Virus record (IMG/VR): IMGVR_UViG_3300046467_000138
Coordinates: 1 to 21,921 of that record
Direction: 5' to 3' (one strand)
DNA: 21,921 bases
Origin: a virus
Of the stretch, positions 3,923 to 17,328 are shown piece by piece (within the stretch, counting starts at the first letter, position 1; the number at the start of each line of letters is the position of its first letter). Both the position numbers and the translations under genes were made by a program. The notes beneath the pieces are model-generated. The model ran no database searches. It was not told where the DNA came from and worked only from the letters and a program-made list of their open reading frames with translations.

Positions 3923-4225
3923 ATGAAAAGCTTTAGAGAAATAACTCAAGAATTGAACGAAGCAAAGTTCAAAGCTCCTAGGGGAACCAAGGAATTAAAG
4001 AGAGATTTCGTCAAGGCTGGTGGAAAATCTTTTGAAATCGTGTATGTTCAGAACAAGAAGAAACAGGTAGAAGTATATCTTGATAGCACCTCAATGGGTG
4101 ATCCATATAAAGATATGAAAACTGCCGAGAAAGAGATGAAAGACATTAAAAAGGTTATGAAACAAATGTCAGAAGATTTTAACATAGAAGAATTAAAGGG
4201 GTTTATCAATGAAATTAATAACTGA
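3923..4225 (+). CDS. Prohead core protein (gp68 position) with N-terminal capsid-targeting-like peptide
   Basis: A 100-aa lysine- and glutamate-rich helical protein in the position of T4 gene 68 (prohead core), immediately before the protease gene, whose ATG lies inside its last codons (17-base overlap). Its N-terminus, MKSFREITQELNEAKF, closely resembles capsid-targeting sequences of T4 internal proteins. L11-N12-E13|A14 fits the T4 gp21 cleavage preference (L/I)-x-E followed by a small residue. The protein is therefore likely packed into the prohead core and trimmed at residue 13. The remainder has a short beta-like centre (SFEIVYVQNKKKQVEVYLD, about 37-55) and a charged coiled C-terminal helix. 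The position and cleavage motif are seen; the role is inferred from T4. Confidence 0.75.
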   Translation: MKSFREITQELNEAKFKAPRGTKELKRDFVKAGGKSFEIVYVQNKKKQVEVYLDSTSMGDPYKDMKTAEKEMKDIKKVMKQMSEDFNIEELKGFINEINN

Positions 4226-4862
4226 GTTTAATAATTACGGTGTAGAACCTGTGATAGTAGAAGCCAATTCAAAAGGTGTCAAAGAATACTTTATTGAAGG
4301 TGTTTTTATGCAAGCAGAAGTAAAAAACCGAAATGGTCGTGTATATCCTAAAGCAATTATGGCTAATGAAGTTAAACGATATAAAGCAGAATTTATTGAT
4401 AAATCAAGAGCGTTTGGGGAGTTAGGACATCCCGAAGGGCCGACAATCAATTTAGACAAAGTCTCTCATATGATTACATCTTTAGAAGAAGATGGTAATA
4501 ATTATGTTGGTAGAGCAAAGATTTTAAGCACACCAAACGGTCAAATCGTAAGAAATTTAATCGATGACGGTGCTAAATTAGGAGTGTCATCTAGAGGATT
4601 AGGTTCCTTGGAACAAAAGGGTGATACACAAGTAGTAAAGGGAGACTTTCAGTTAGCAACCGCTGCTGATATTGTTGCAGACCCTTCTGCACCTGAGGCT
4701 TTCGTAGAAGGTATCATGGAAGGTGTAGAGTGGATTTACGATAATGGTATCCTAAAGGCCCAAGATGTAGAGGAAATGCAGAATGAATTAAAATTTGCAA
4801 CCCTAAATAAATTGGAAGAAACAAAGATAAATTTATGGAAAAGGTTTGTTGAGAACCTTTAG
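4209..4862 (+). CDS. gp21: Prohead core scaffolding protease gp21
   Basis: Serine protease of the T4 prohead core (MEROPS S80 type), 217 aa against 212 in T4. It cleaves the scaffold, core proteins and major capsid protein at (L/I)xE sites during head maturation. Conserved family blocks are visible: EGVFMQAEVKNRNGRVYP (about 30-47), FGELGHP with the catalytic His at residue 74, and LGVSSRGLGSL with the catalytic Ser at 127 or 128. The N-terminus MKLITEF contains L-I-T-E at residues 3-6, a possible self-cleavage site. Translation appears coupled to the upstream core gene (17-base overlap). It is followed by a late promoter and the scaffold gene. Confidence 0.95.
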   Translation: MKLITEFNNYGVEPVIVEANSKGVKEYFIEGVFMQAEVKNRNGRVYPKAIMANEVKRYKAEFIDKSRAFGELGHPEGPTINLDKVSHMITSLEEDGNNYVGRAKILSTPNGQIVRNLIDDGAKLGVSSRGLGSLEQKGDTQVVKGDFQLATAADIVADPSAPEAFVEGIMEGVEWIYDNGILKAQDVEEMQNELKFATLNKLEETKINLWKRFVENL

Positions 4863-4906: not shown

Positions 4907-6277
4907 ATGGCAGAGTTAGAAAACCAAGCAGCAATCGAAGAGGTGAAAACTTCTACAGTTGAAGAATCAGCTGTGAAGCAACCTCACGAAGGTGCTGAGA
5001 AAGGTGACGCAAAGCCCGTAAAACAAGGTTCATCCGATGCTGAGACCATAGGGTCAGGCAAAGCGGTGGTCGTCAAACCTGAGGAAAATCCTGTTGACAA
5101 AGCTGTGGCAGCTTCCAAAGCAGCCGCCGATGAGACCAAACCAGTAAAGGACGCAGTCAACAAATTAGCTGACAAAGCCGAGAAAGGTGAAAAACTCAAA
5201 GAAACAGAAGATAACGAAGACGAAGATGCAATCACAGAGAAAGCACCTTCTAAAATGGAATCTATCAAGGCTATCGTCAACACTATGAAGGAAATGACCA
5301 AAGAAGACCTACAAAAAACTTTTGGTTCAATATCAGAAGCAGACGTAGACGAATCCTTGACAAAAGCAGAAGTCGCTAGAAAAATCGTTGAAACCTTAAA
5401 AGGTATGGACGAAGAAGAAGTCTTTAAATTCGCAGAAGGATTCAATTCTTCTAAGAAGGAAGAAGAAGAATCAGTTAAAGAATCAGTGGAAACTGATGAA
5501 GAAACTCCAGCGTCAGTTGAAGCAGATTTAGTAGAGATTGAAGTAGAAGACGACTTAAAAGCAATCTCTGAAGCACTTGACCTTTCCGAAGAAAATGCTG
5601 AAAAAGCAAAAACAATCTTTAAAGCTGCAATTAACAGTAAAGTTGCACAAATTAAAGAAGAATTGGAAACGGCAAAACAAGAAGAAATTAAAACCTCGGT
5701 AGAACAAGTTAAAACTGATCTTTCAGAAGCAGTTGACAAGTATCTTACCTATTGCGCAGAAGAGTGGACGAAAGAAAACGAACTCGCAATCGAAAGGGGT
5801 TTGAGATCGGAAATGACAGAAAACTTTATTACAGGATTGAAAACATTGTTCGTAGAACATTATGTTGAAGTTCCCGAAGATAAGTATAATGTTATTGATG
5901 AACTCGCAAATCGTCTCGATGATATGGAACAAAAACTTGACGGTGAAGTCCAGAAGAATATGGATGTAACCGAAGAGTTAGACCAAATCAAGAGAGGCAA
6001 TGTAATTAGAGAGGCCTGCGAAGACCTTTCTGAATCACAGAAAGAAAAAATGGCATCACTCGCAGACGGAGTAGACTACAAAGACGGCACTGATTTCGCA
6101 GAGAAAGTAAGTGAAGTTAAAGCAGCCTATTTCGGTAAATCCGAAGGTGATGACATTGCTGAGGAAACCAAAGTTGAGGAAGGAACTGGAACATTTGAAG
6201 GTGAAGCATCATCTCCTGTTCTTGATCCTACCATTGCTAGGTATTCCAAAGCTATTTCTAATTTAAATCCTTTATAA
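4907..6277 (+). CDS. gp22: Prohead scaffolding core protein gp22 (long form)
   Basis: Main scaffold of the prohead core, around which gp23 assembles and which gp21 then degrades to peptides. Assignment rests on position between gp21 and gp23 and on the character of the protein: 456 aa, highly acidic, Glu/Lys/Ala-rich, with long predicted coiled coils (about 210-360) and almost no aromatics in the first 250 residues. It is clearly longer than T4 gp22 (269 aa). The extra sequence looks like the low-complexity E/K/A/P/S-rich N-terminal 110 residues. Several L/I-x-E sites (LKE, ITE and others) fit protease turnover. The C-terminus (PVLDPTIARYSKAISNLNPL) is less charged and could contact the shell. 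An inverted repeat spans its stop codon. Confidence 0.9.
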   Translation: MAELENQAAIEEVKTSTVEESAVKQPHEGAEKGDAKPVKQGSSDAETIGSGKAVVVKPEENPVDKAVAASKAAADETKPVKDAVNKLADKAEKGEKLKETEDNEDEDAITEKAPSKMESIKAIVNTMKEMTKEDLQKTFGSISEADVDESLTKAEVARKIVETLKGMDEEEVFKFAEGFNSSKKEEEESVKESVETDEETPASVEADLVEIEVEDDLKAISEALDLSEENAEKAKTIFKAAINSKVAQIKEELETAKQEEIKTSVEQVKTDLSEAVDKYLTYCAEEWTKENELAIERGLRSEMTENFITGLKTLFVEHYVEVPEDKYNVIDELANRLDDMEQKLDGEVQKNMDVTEELDQIKRGNVIREACEDLSESQKEKMASLADGVDYKDGTDFAEKVSEVKAAYFGKSEGDDIAEETKVEEGTGTFEGEASSPVLDPTIARYSKAISNLNPL

Positions 6278-14101: not shown

Positions 14102-15813
14102 TTAATTTTACAACGGTTAGATATAAAAACTTACTTTCGGCGGGAAACACCTATACCGAAATAAAATTAGACGATCACCAAACAACCCTAATTCTAGGAG
14201 AAAACGGTAGTGGTAAATCTACCCTACTGGATGCACTTTGTTTTGGACTCTATGGAAAGGGGTTCAGAAACCTCAAGAAAGACCTTCTAGTCAACTCTAT
14301 TAACCAAAAGGGCCTTGAGGTAGAGGTGGACTTTAATATTGGTAAGAGACAGTATAGAGTCATTAGAGGTGCAAAACCAAACAAATTTGAATTATATGTT
14401 AATGACAACTTGGTCAATCAAGATGCAAATGTCAGAGACTACCAAGAACACTTAGAAAAGAACATACTCAAAATGAATTATCGTTCTTTTACTCAAGTGG
14501 CTATCCTAGGGTCAGCTAACTTTACTCCATTTATGCAATTAAAATCTGCTGAAAGGAGAAAACTTGTTGAAGACCTTTTGGATATAACCATCTTTTCTAC
14601 TATGTCAGAAATATTAAGAAAGAAACTTTCTAACCATGTTGTTAATGTTAGAGAAAATGATCATGAAACCGACCTTTTGGAAGAAAGAATTAACGGATTG
14701 AATGAACAACTTGAAGCACTTCGTGAGAATAGAGATACGAGAATTAAACAGTATAAAGGAACCGTTGAGGAAACCCAAACTAATATTGATAATCTCATGG
14801 AGAAAATAGATAAAAAGACGGAAATCGTGACTACGAAAACATCCACTATTGAGGATTATGATGGGAAAATGGAACAGGTGCGAGAAGAGATTTATTTGGA
14901 AGGTAAACTCAATGATAATTATAAGAAAGCAATTAAGGAAATTAAATTTTATGAAGACAATGACGAATGTCCCACCTGTGAGCAAGAGTTAAATGAAACA
15001 CATAAGAGAGAACACCTTGAGACACATAAGAGCAAGAAGACGGAACTATCGAATGCTATTACAGAAATCGGGAAAGCCATCCAAAAATCCCAAAAAAGAC
15101 TCGTAGAAATCGCTACAATCCAAGAAGGAATTCATGATATACAAAAACAAATCGGCTTGTTGCAAACAGAATTAGTATCTAATCAGAAGTTTATCACCAA
15201 AATACAGAAAGAAATTGATGGACTAAAAATAGAAGGAACCACTGGAACAAATGTCCATGAGAAAATTGATGATAGTGAAGAGAATTTAAATATTCTACAT
15301 GCAAAGAAAAAGAATTTAGCAGAGACAGGTCACTATTTTGAAATAGCACAAATGTTGTTAAAAGATCAAGGGGTTAAACTAAGGATCATAAAACAATATG
15401 TTCCTATCATGAATAAACTAATACAGAAATACTTAGCACAACTTGAGTTTTATGTTGGGTTTGAATTGAATGAATCTTTTGAAGAAACCATCAAGTCACG
15501 ATTCAGAGATGAATTTAAATATGATAATTTCTCCCAAGGTGAAAAGATGAGAATCGATCTTGCATTATTGTTTACATGGAGAACAGTAGCAAGAATGAAA
15601 AACAGTGTTAACACCAATCTATTGATATTGGATGAGGTGTTTGATTCTTCATTAGATGCAGCTGGCACGGATGATTTTTTAAGGTTATTGAATGGACTTA
15701 CCGAGAAAACTAACGCATTTATCATATCACACAAGGGTGATGCACTGTATGACAAGTTCAATGATGTAATCAGATTTGAAAAATACAAGAACTTCTCAAG
15801 ACTTGCAAAATAG
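14098..15813 (+). CDS. gp46: Recombination endonuclease subunit gp46 (Rad50-type ATPase)
   Basis: SMC/Rad50/SbcC-type ABC ATPase partner of gp47, 571 aa against 560 in T4. N-terminal half-ATPase with Walker A GENGSGKS (34-41) and Q-loop region (QVAILGSANFTPFM); antiparallel coiled coil interrupted by the zinc hook C291-P-T-C294; C-terminal half with signature F478-S-Q-G-E-K-M, Walker B NLLILDE (D512, E513), D-loop SSLD and the switch histidine in ISHKGD. All key residues are present. Translation is coupled to gp47. A 12-base gap leads to the next gene and contains a late-type box. Confidence 0.97.
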   Translation: MINFTTVRYKNLLSAGNTYTEIKLDDHQTTLILGENGSGKSTLLDALCFGLYGKGFRNLKKDLLVNSINQKGLEVEVDFNIGKRQYRVIRGAKPNKFELYVNDNLVNQDANVRDYQEHLEKNILKMNYRSFTQVAILGSANFTPFMQLKSAERRKLVEDLLDITIFSTMSEILRKKLSNHVVNVRENDHETDLLEERINGLNEQLEALRENRDTRIKQYKGTVEETQTNIDNLMEKIDKKTEIVTTKTSTIEDYDGKMEQVREEIYLEGKLNDNYKKAIKEIKFYEDNDECPTCEQELNETHKREHLETHKSKKTELSNAITEIGKAIQKSQKRLVEIATIQEGIHDIQKQIGLLQTELVSNQKFITKIQKEIDGLKIEGTTGTNVHEKIDDSEENLNILHAKKKNLAETGHYFEIAQMLLKDQGVKLRIIKQYVPIMNKLIQKYLAQLEFYVGFELNESFEETIKSRFRDEFKYDNFSQGEKMRIDLALLFTWRTVARMKNSVNTNLLILDEVFDSSLDAAGTDDFLRLLNGLTEKTNAFIISHKGDALYDKFNDVIRFEKYKNFSRLAK

Positions 15814-15820
15814 ATAAATA
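15813..15820 (+). promoter_or_regulatory. Late-type promoter (GATAAATA) for the 500-aa gene
   Basis: One mismatch from TATAAATA and within the NATAAATA form I recall for marine T4-like phages. The last base lies exactly six bases before the ATG at 15826, the same geometry as the exact late box before gp20, predicting +1 at the ATG. It overlaps the gp46 stop codon. Confidence 0.5.
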
Positions 15821-15825
15821 GTATT

Positions 15826-17328
15826 ATGGGAATTACAACACAAACAGTAGAACAACACATTCTAATGGAAGCAGATACTTCTGCAGCTACTAATGTTGAG
15901 ATGGCTATCTGTTATCATTATAATTTATCGAAAGTTGGTGATGAAATTGAAGCACAAAAAGCATCAGGAATTAATGACAAGAATTTTGCAAAATTAACAC
16001 CACCAGTATTAAAAATAGGTGAAAAGGTTGCATCACAGATGGGAAACCGTGGATCATTATTAAGACATTCGGGTGCATCGAAGGGTGGAAAAAACCATTA
16101 TAAAGGTGGTGCAGATAACACACCTAAGGCAGATTTTTATGGGAATGCAACAAACCGTATTTCATTAAAGAAATCAGGTGGTGGTGGTAAAGGTGCTCAA
16201 CTTATGAGTGCAAAATCTGCTGAAGCCGCTGGGGTATTCCAAGCTGCAATCGGTCATTTTGAAAATAATGGTGGTAGTGGTCTTTCAGAAAGTAAAGAGT
16301 TTACAAGTGCTATTGATATTTTACAAAATAAAATGTTAGAAACTGCAAGAAATGATATGGTTGTCCAAGCTGGTAAATCTAAAAAAGAATTTGGTATATG
16401 GTATTCAACTGAGAGTTCAAGATTTAAAGCTTTCACACAGAAAGCAGGACTTGATGCAAAGCAAGCTACAAAACATTTAAAAGCAGAACTTAGTATGGTA
16501 GGTGCCGCACAGAAGATTGATAAGAAACATTATGAGAAGTTACCTTCCGAAAAGGATTTAAGATCAGCTGGTCTAAAAAGAATTGACAGATCAAATTCTT
16601 TAGAACCATACCGAAAAGAGTTTGAAGAAAATTCAGATGTGCAACTTGGGGATGTTCAAGTAAGTGCAAGACACTTAGAGAAGGTAGAAGCAGATAAATT
16701 AACCGCCTCAGCAGTTAAAAACCAAGTGTCGGATATTATTAAAAAATCTATTGACGGAACAGCATGGAAAATAGAATTACAAAAGTTCTTTGATACGAAT
16801 GATGGTCTTAAAAAGTGGATGGTTTACGAGGCTGGATCAGGATTATATAAATTTACAGGTCATAATTCTACTGGATCACCATACACTGGTAGTAATGAGA
16901 ATGTTGCAAATAGAATTTTAGTGTTTAACGACAGTGGAATTTCAAAGGAATATAAAATGATGGATTATGCAATGGCTAATCCACAGTTATGTGATAAGAT
17001 AGATGTAACATTTAAAGCAACAGGAAAAAGAACTTATATGGCACTTAGAATTGCATCAGAAGTAGAACACAATCTTCCTATGTTGCAAGAAGAATTAAAA
17101 AATATTGAATCTAAATTTCTTGCAGAAGGGTTTATTGGAGACATGAAAAAGAAATTTACAAACTTTCTTGATAAAGTAAAAAAAGCAATATGGAACTTTA
17201 TCGTGAAGTTGATTGAAAAAGTTATAGGAAACATTAAAGTTCTTGCAAAGAAAGGAATAACTGCATTTAATGAAGCGATGGGATTGGATATGCAAGGACG
17301 CGTAGGAATGAAAACACCATCATGGTAG
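15826..17328 (+). CDS. Putative capsid-packaged protein with nuclease-like (D-SxK) motif and amphipathic C-terminus
   Basis: A 500-aa protein of unknown function. The N-terminus runs to L13-M14-E15|A16 (ILMEADTS), which fits the gp21 prohead-protease site and the length of T4 internal-protein targeting peptides. Residues 97-128 read ...TPKAD103 ... RIS113LK115 ... AQ125LMSA, with E25 in a preceding helix (NVEMAICYHYN). The order E...D...SxK...Q resembles PD-(D/E)xK nucleases, with Ser in place of the second acid. The middle is lysine-rich and soluble. The last ~65 residues after FLAE434|G are a cationic amphipathic helix (KKAIWNFIVKLIEKVIGNIKVLAKK). It sits between gp46 and peptide deformylase (7-base overlap) with a late-type box abutting its ATG. 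A structural or injected virion protein is inferred. The nuclease reading is tentative. Confidence 0.7.
   Translation: MGITTQTVEQHILMEADTSAATNVEMAICYHYNLSKVGDEIEAQKASGINDKNFAKLTPPVLKIGEKVASQMGNRGSLLRHSGASKGGKNHYKGGADNTPKADFYGNATNRISLKKSGGGGKGAQLMSAKSAEAAGVFQAAIGHFENNGGSGLSESKEFTSAIDILQNKMLETARNDMVVQAGKSKKEFGIWYSTESSRFKAFTQKAGLDAKQATKHLKAELSMVGAAQKIDKKHYEKLPSEKDLRSAGLKRIDRSNSLEPYRKEFEENSDVQLGDVQVSARHLEKVEADKLTASAVKNQVSDIIKKSIDGTAWKIELQKFFDTNDGLKKWMVYEAGSGLYKFTGHNSTGSPYTGSNENVANRILVFNDSGISKEYKMMDYAMANPQLCDKIDVTFKATGKRTYMALRIASEVEHNLPMLQEELKNIESKFLAEGFIGDMKKKFTNFLDKVKKAIWNFIVKLIEKVIGNIKVLAKKGITAFNEAMGLDMQGRVGMKTPSW

Follow-up and report, generated by a model that had tools for sequence, protein, structure and literature searches.

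A conserved nuclease-like protein of marine T4-like phages, predicted to be packaged in the head and trimmed at both ends

For the protein encoded at 15826-17328 of the window (the whole stretch of DNA analysed, a 21,921-nt virus record of a marine T4-like phage), a scheme is proposed in which a precursor is packaged, trimmed twice and injected, and carries a nuclease core; as a whole this scheme is considered somewhat probable. From the sequence, packaging in the head is very probable and injection into the cell is probable, while action against host or competitor DNA is suggested tentatively. Capsid targeting with prohead-protease trimming had been proposed in the first-pass annotation and is strongly supported by the conserved leader junction. 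It is extended here by a second conserved site, L432-x-E434/G435 (a slash marks the predicted cleavage point), which that annotation did not mention.

Genome setting

In the window, the genes for portal gp20, prohead protease gp21, scaffold gp22 and major capsid protein gp23 occur in this order, followed downstream of gp23 by apparent UvsW, gp55, gp47 and gp46 genes. The identities of gp21 and gp22 were obtained with Pfam, and the remaining window genes were named by eye from sequence and order. The ORF at 15826-17328 lies immediately 3' of gp46, in overlap with a gene for peptide deformylase; its features are listed in Table 1. In addition, a 100-aa ORF at 3923-4225, just 5' of the prohead protease gene, begins MKSFREITQELNE/AKF and also has a leader with an L-x-E/A site, making it another candidate for a packaged or a core protein.

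Table 1. Positions of the features discussed, in window coordinates
Feature	Position	Strand	Remark
gp21-type prohead protease (Peptidase_S77)	4209..4862	+	Pfam E 6.4e-37; likely processing enzyme
gp22-type scaffold	4907..6277	+	Pfam E 6.9e-68; core that leaders would bind
Late-type promoter box GATAAATA	15813..15820	+	13 nt 5' of ATG
Precursor of the nuclease-like, predicted packaged protein, 500 aa	15826..17328	+
Leader, residues 1-15, capsid-targeting-like propeptide ending L-M-E/A	15826..15870	+	E at P1 in 44/44
Predicted mature protein, residues 16-434	15871..17127	+	46 kDa, pI 9.1; AF2 pLDDT 90, pTM 0.87
E25, first helix of mature protein	15898..15900	+	Invariant
D103 of (T/S)(P/S)K(T/A)D motif	16132..16134	+	Invariant
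S113-L-K115, SxK on beta strand	16162..16170	+	S and K invariant
Q125-L-M-S128 motif	16198..16209	+	S invariant in deepest alignment
E133, start of next helix	16222..16224	+	17 residues lie between it and K115; 12-13 in compact relatives
E335-A-G-S-G339-L-Y-K342-F343, second conserved motif	16828..16854	+	Consensus EAxSGxxKF
K397, late strand	17014..17016	+	Invariant lysine
Second prohead-protease-like site L432-A-E434/G435	17119..17130	+	[LI]xE/[GAS] in 35/42 complete family members
C-terminal tail, residues 435-500	17128..17325	+	Basic amphipathic, pI 10.1, final TPSW

Relatives of the window protein

Used alone, the window protein gave no match in Pfam or PHROGs, and neither it nor one close relative matched anything when searched singly against cultured phages. 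Scans of IMG/VR gave 49 loci, and distant members L054-L056 then formed a bridge to gp15 of Methylophilales phage Melnitz, gp126 of Pelagibacter phage HTVC008M and a homologue in Microcystis phage Mel-JY01. The family comprised 96 relatives, reduced to 46 representatives, and with a wider profile a relative was found to be encoded in 236 matching stretches. The window-type and Melnitz-type profiles detect each other, mostly at 30-68 bits. A Foldseek search of BFVD returned a single match, the unannotated cyanophage S-RIM50 protein AMO42966 (E 1.2e-6), which is also supported as a distant homologue by profile (E 2.9e-5). Among the records of 20 relatives, 12 carried Peptidase_S77, and these comprised all those of at least 59 kb except G004 (78,962 bases) as well as some shorter ones. 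A sub-threshold match of a phiKZ internal-head-protein to the tail region of L054 was also observed (E 6.5e-5).

The sole genome match, L149 (JAAXIF010000105.1), was considered as a bacterial homologue and rejected. It is a divergent member on a T4-like phage contig with window-like gene order, where it occupies the corresponding slot, flanked by gp46 and peptide deformylase; the contig is binned with a Sphingobacteriales MAG. A phage contig in a bacterial bin gives no restriction-modification context, and the contig is probably misbinned, or else a hint at the host. Phages of SAR11 and OM43, which rank with the commonest marine bacteria, are among the carriers, and the family is testable with the cultured phages HTVC008M and Melnitz.

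N-terminal leader and first cleavage site

The protein begins MGITTQTVEQHILME/ADTSAATNVEM, in agreement with the 15-residue leader ending L-M-E/A described in the first-pass annotation. A leader was present in 44 of the 45 representatives having a complete 5' end. In all 44 the P1 residue is E, over leader lengths of 10 to 186 residues; P3 is L in 38, I in 5 and N in 1 (L or I in 43/44), and P1' is A in 31, S in 6, G in 5, T in 1 and E in 1 (A, S or G in 42/44), so that the junction, for which conservation among aligned homologues had been proposed as a check, is not variable. The leaders themselves share little common sequence and are 10-44 residues long, apart from three of 176-186; 26 of the 44 have 10-16 residues and the rest are longer. 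From the cleavage point to the invariant helix glutamate the distance is near-constant, at 9-10 residues in most members.

The pattern [LI]xE[AGS] within residues 6-45 was found in 38 of 45 family members compared with 65 of 549 other ORFs on the same contigs (Fisher p 3e-25, which overstates independence because family members share ancestry). A strict leader regex run on whole contigs picked up just 8 of the 45 members, since many leaders are long or atypical, and the junction test is the robust leader test of the two.

In T4, gp21 cuts after L/I-x-E, leaders have 10-19 residues, and leader positions 4 and 7 matter for the targeting of IPIII (PMC9026906). A propeptide of this length, an L/I-x-E junction and a gp21-type protease gene are all found in the window. 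All 22 short leaders (10-13 residues) carry F, Y or L at position 4 and F, Y or H at position 7, and relatives' leaders such as MKSFNQYLLAE and MKTYRQFINEE fit these key positions in the manner of the T4 internal proteins; the window leader MGITTQTVEQHILME has T at both 4 and 7, without the aromatics of its short-leader relatives. The window protein resembles IPI, IPII and IPIII in its short L/I-x-E leader predicted to be cut by gp21, its late-type promoter and its basic mature form. It differs from them in its 419-residue mature protein, enzyme-type conserved residues and C-terminal cleavage site. In three relatives (L091:3416-4975, L093:3479-5020 and L094:3473-5020) an N-terminal extension of 176-186 residues precedes the L-x-E junction, and this fused domain would be removed by cleavage.

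Late-type promoter

The late-type promoter box noted earlier near the ATG was found, and TATAAATA occurs with identical 13-nt spacing at 2188-2195 before the portal gene gp20. Within 120 nt upstream, TATAAATA was present for 24 of 45 family members and 17 of 621 other ORFs, the latter set containing spurious ORFs and the former being interrelated; late expression of the family genes is predicted from this enrichment. The boxes at 2188-2201 and 15813-15826 are very near the start codons, and the 15826 ORF has no obvious Shine-Dalgarno; gp20 and this ORF may have very short or leaderless late transcripts.

Conserved core residues and predicted fold

The residues E25, D103, S113-L-K115 and Q125 were located as had been claimed, and D103 and K115, the two whose variability in homologues was to be checked, proved invariant. 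The residues invariant in all 46 representatives are E25, K101, D103, S113, K115, M127, S128, E133, E335, A336, G339, K342 and K397; Q125 is conserved in 98%. In the deepest alignment, compared by aligned position, E25, K101, D103, S113, K115, S128, E335, G339 and K397 are kept, and in S-RIM50 E133 is either shifted or missing. The D-K spacing is 10-12 residues, and the K-E spacing is 12-13 in 22 of the 46 and 17-18 in the other 24. The conserved first-helix E, D and SxK variant of the PD-(D/E)xK pattern are present; S takes the place of the canonical D or E of (D/E)xK, and SxK is a known variant. The predicted active site is most likely of the SxK kind, consisting of E25, D103 and S113-x-K115 together with E133 and/or E335.

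The AF2 model of residues 16-434, built with 67 sequences, is confident (Table 1); an earlier run with 7 sequences was poor (pLDDT 53) and was discarded. The model has a helical start, a beta hairpin bearing SLK and QLMS, a helix from near E133, a long helical insertion and then four strands, and this order agrees just partly with the restriction-endonuclease fold. Foldseek against the PDB gave no match with the model (best E 0.75), PDB sequence searches gave no match of consequence, and profile searches of Pfam, NCBIfam and PHROGs recognised no nuclease family. The term nuclease-like is plausible on the motif order, and a PD-(D/E)xK-like nuclease core, placed in no family, is judged rather likely.

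Alternatively, the protein might be packaged and injected in the manner of an internal protein and, with an inactive nuclease-like fold, serve as an anti-restriction or anti-defence inhibitor. Each of the T4 proteins IPI, IPII and IPIII is an inhibitor of Type IV restriction enzymes (PMC12373910), the missing acidic residue of (D/E)xK would suit an inactive fold, and the divergence of L149 in the same slot is what arms-race cargo would show. However, E25, D103, S113 and K115 are invariant among the 46 representatives and stay so in the deepest alignment, which suits catalysis over binding, inhibitors usually diverge fast, and SxK is also found in the HpaII family of restriction enzymes; the inhibitor reading is considered unlikely.

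Comparison with restriction enzymes

The motif order of the family core, E...KTD...SLK...QL.S, resembles that of the HpaII family (PF09561), in which a first-helix E, K-[ST]-D, S-[IL]-K, [QST]L.[SN] and a later [DE]...G follow in the same order. An N-core profile aligned to HpaII at KSD...SIKS...STLLN with p about 0.03, a result matched by one shuffled decoy in 40, and in the profile comparison the C-half did not exceed the decoys. At full length, hhalign gave P 0.65 and hmmsearch scores were near zero, and in hmmscan with Pfam the family was not recognised by the HpaII model. Membership in HpaII, convincing by eye over both halves, is not claimed, since full length and C-half are unsupported and the profiles back the core motif alone, weakly. 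A search of the PDB by sequence found no HpaII structure, which would account for the absent PDB match if the HpaII link is real.

The CCGG-family enzymes Cfr10I, NgoMIV, Bse634I and Ecl18kI have a variant active site, PDx21-53Kx12-13E (PMC4652773). As in these enzymes, the acidic residue before xK is absent and, in compact relatives, an E follows 12-13 residues after K; the CCGG-type site suggested by this spacing is not claimed, as the D-K spacing of 10-12 does not fit. In the window type the arrangement is K-x17-E, and searches by sequence and by fold gave no match to the CCGG-family enzymes.

C-terminal cleavage site and tail

At the second site, Melnitz-type members read LTE/I or LNE/F. 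Cleavage at L432-x-E434/G435 would free a basic 66-residue tail. In T4, propeptides are removed from both ends of Alt by gp21 (PMC9026906). The window protein with its two predicted sites is similar to Alt, an injected enzyme trimmed at both ends, and differs from it in having no ADP-ribosyltransferase family match and other conserved residues. The homologues of Microcystis phage Mel-JY01 and cyanophage S-RIM50 start at the mature position and have neither leader nor tail, while a prohead protease is encoded in both genomes. Packaging thus appears as a module on a conserved core, and leader and tail would be gained or lost jointly around that constant core, on the basis of these two cases.

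These features also bear on the possibility that the protein is a head-assembly core protein similar to gp67 and gp68, cleaved for morphogenesis and without a role in the new host. The late-type promoter, the L-x-E sites and the basic mature form would be shared by such a protein, and gp21 cuts T4 core proteins as well. T4 core proteins, however, are cut to multiple fragments, whereas here one 419-residue domain modelled with confidence by AF2 lies between two sites and holds enzyme-like invariant residues. Moreover, leaderless homologues occur in cyanophage and Microcystis phages that have the protease, indicating that the family is not a general assembly part, and the core-protein reading is regarded as quite improbable.

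Neighbouring genes and virion evidence from other phages

In many relatives the next gene codes for a DUF6267 protein that has a K-[WY]-D-G motif and usually a leader ending LxE, and this protein is possibly a co-packaged partner of the nuclease-like protein. In L058:9025-10257, L057:6473-7729 and many others, the KWDG motif of DUF6267 is ligase-like and the leader mostly ends L-x-E/D or similar. An NMNAT/cytidylyltransferase-like gene, sometimes leader-bearing, follows DUF6267 in many relatives; the window itself has neither gene. Cytidylyltransferases of this neighbouring type have been detected in cyanophage virions, one of them by mass spectrometry in S-CREM2 (PMC10665884). This S-CREM2 protein, gp154, begins MKNFSSFLTE/A, and further virion-detected non-structural proteins of S-CREM2 begin MKDFDSFLEE, MKDLHSFLTE and VKRFDAFLTE. 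In two S-CREM2 regions the leader regex matched 4 of the 13 proteins detected in virions and none of the 37 undetected ones (Fisher p 0.003, an optimistic value since the regex was written after the leaders were seen). The leader pattern, tied to the published virion mass spectrometry of a marine T4-like phage, would allow injected cargo to be predicted from sequence in such phages. No virion proteome reporting the nuclease-like family was found.

It is very improbable that the protein is a replication or recombination enzyme active during DNA replication with incidental L-x-E motifs: gp46 and gp47 adjoin it in the window, helicase and primase genes adjoin it in relatives, and the S-RIM50 and Mel-JY01 forms have no leader or tail (the leaderless S-RIM50 form may indeed be such an enzyme), but this reading accounts for neither the conserved junctions nor the late promoter, and neighbours in relatives share the leader kind, one of them being of a virion-found type.

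A putative Cas9-like nuclease, gp12, has been reported in virions of cyanophage S-CREM2 (PMC10665884). It (L162 7704-10313, 869 aa) carries LRFASFMAE/A near its start, which suggests that gp12 is another leader-bearing packaged nuclease. Annotated as a nuclease and found in virions of a marine T4-like phage, gp12 is comparable to the nuclease-like, predicted packaged window protein; it is set apart by its 869 aa and its annotation as another kind of nuclease. The statement that no described system has this make-up stands largely, except for this report and for the well-known T4 internal-protein/Alt delivery system. The injected T4 proteins characterised so far are inhibitors or modifying enzymes; a system of the T4-internal-protein kind is known already, and the nuclease-like cargo is novel.

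Proposed mechanism

In the proposed scheme of packaging, trimming and injection, the precursor would be synthesised late as an internal head protein and directed by its leader to the prohead scaffold core. The gp21 protease would cut after L-M-E15 and L-A-E434 to give the basic mature protein, which would remain with the packaged DNA and leave together with it when a cell is infected. The mature core, as a metal-dependent nuclease of the PD-(D/E)xK kind, would then cut DNA inside that cell. In T4, EcoRI and staphylococcal nuclease can be packaged when fused to a leader (PMC9026906, PMC3012670), indicating that a packaged nuclease is physically feasible. A natural injected nuclease, if true, would be a new way of disabling host or competitor DNA before phage gene expression, and it poses the problem of how the phage's own DNA survives in the head; this DNA might be spared through its modification, the absence of metal, the sequence specificity of the enzyme or inhibition by the tail.

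More speculatively still, the family may be a widespread one of restriction-enzyme-like precursor nucleases with a capsid address and a removable tail, harmless until freed in the head by the prohead protease and injected with the genome to attack the DNA of the host or a rival as soon as infection begins, with divergent, exchangeable versions in one slot. Two family members of different types were observed in tandem on one contig (L046:387-1538 and L046:1535-3019), and this pair and the divergent version in the slot of L149 are as expected for exchangeable cargo.
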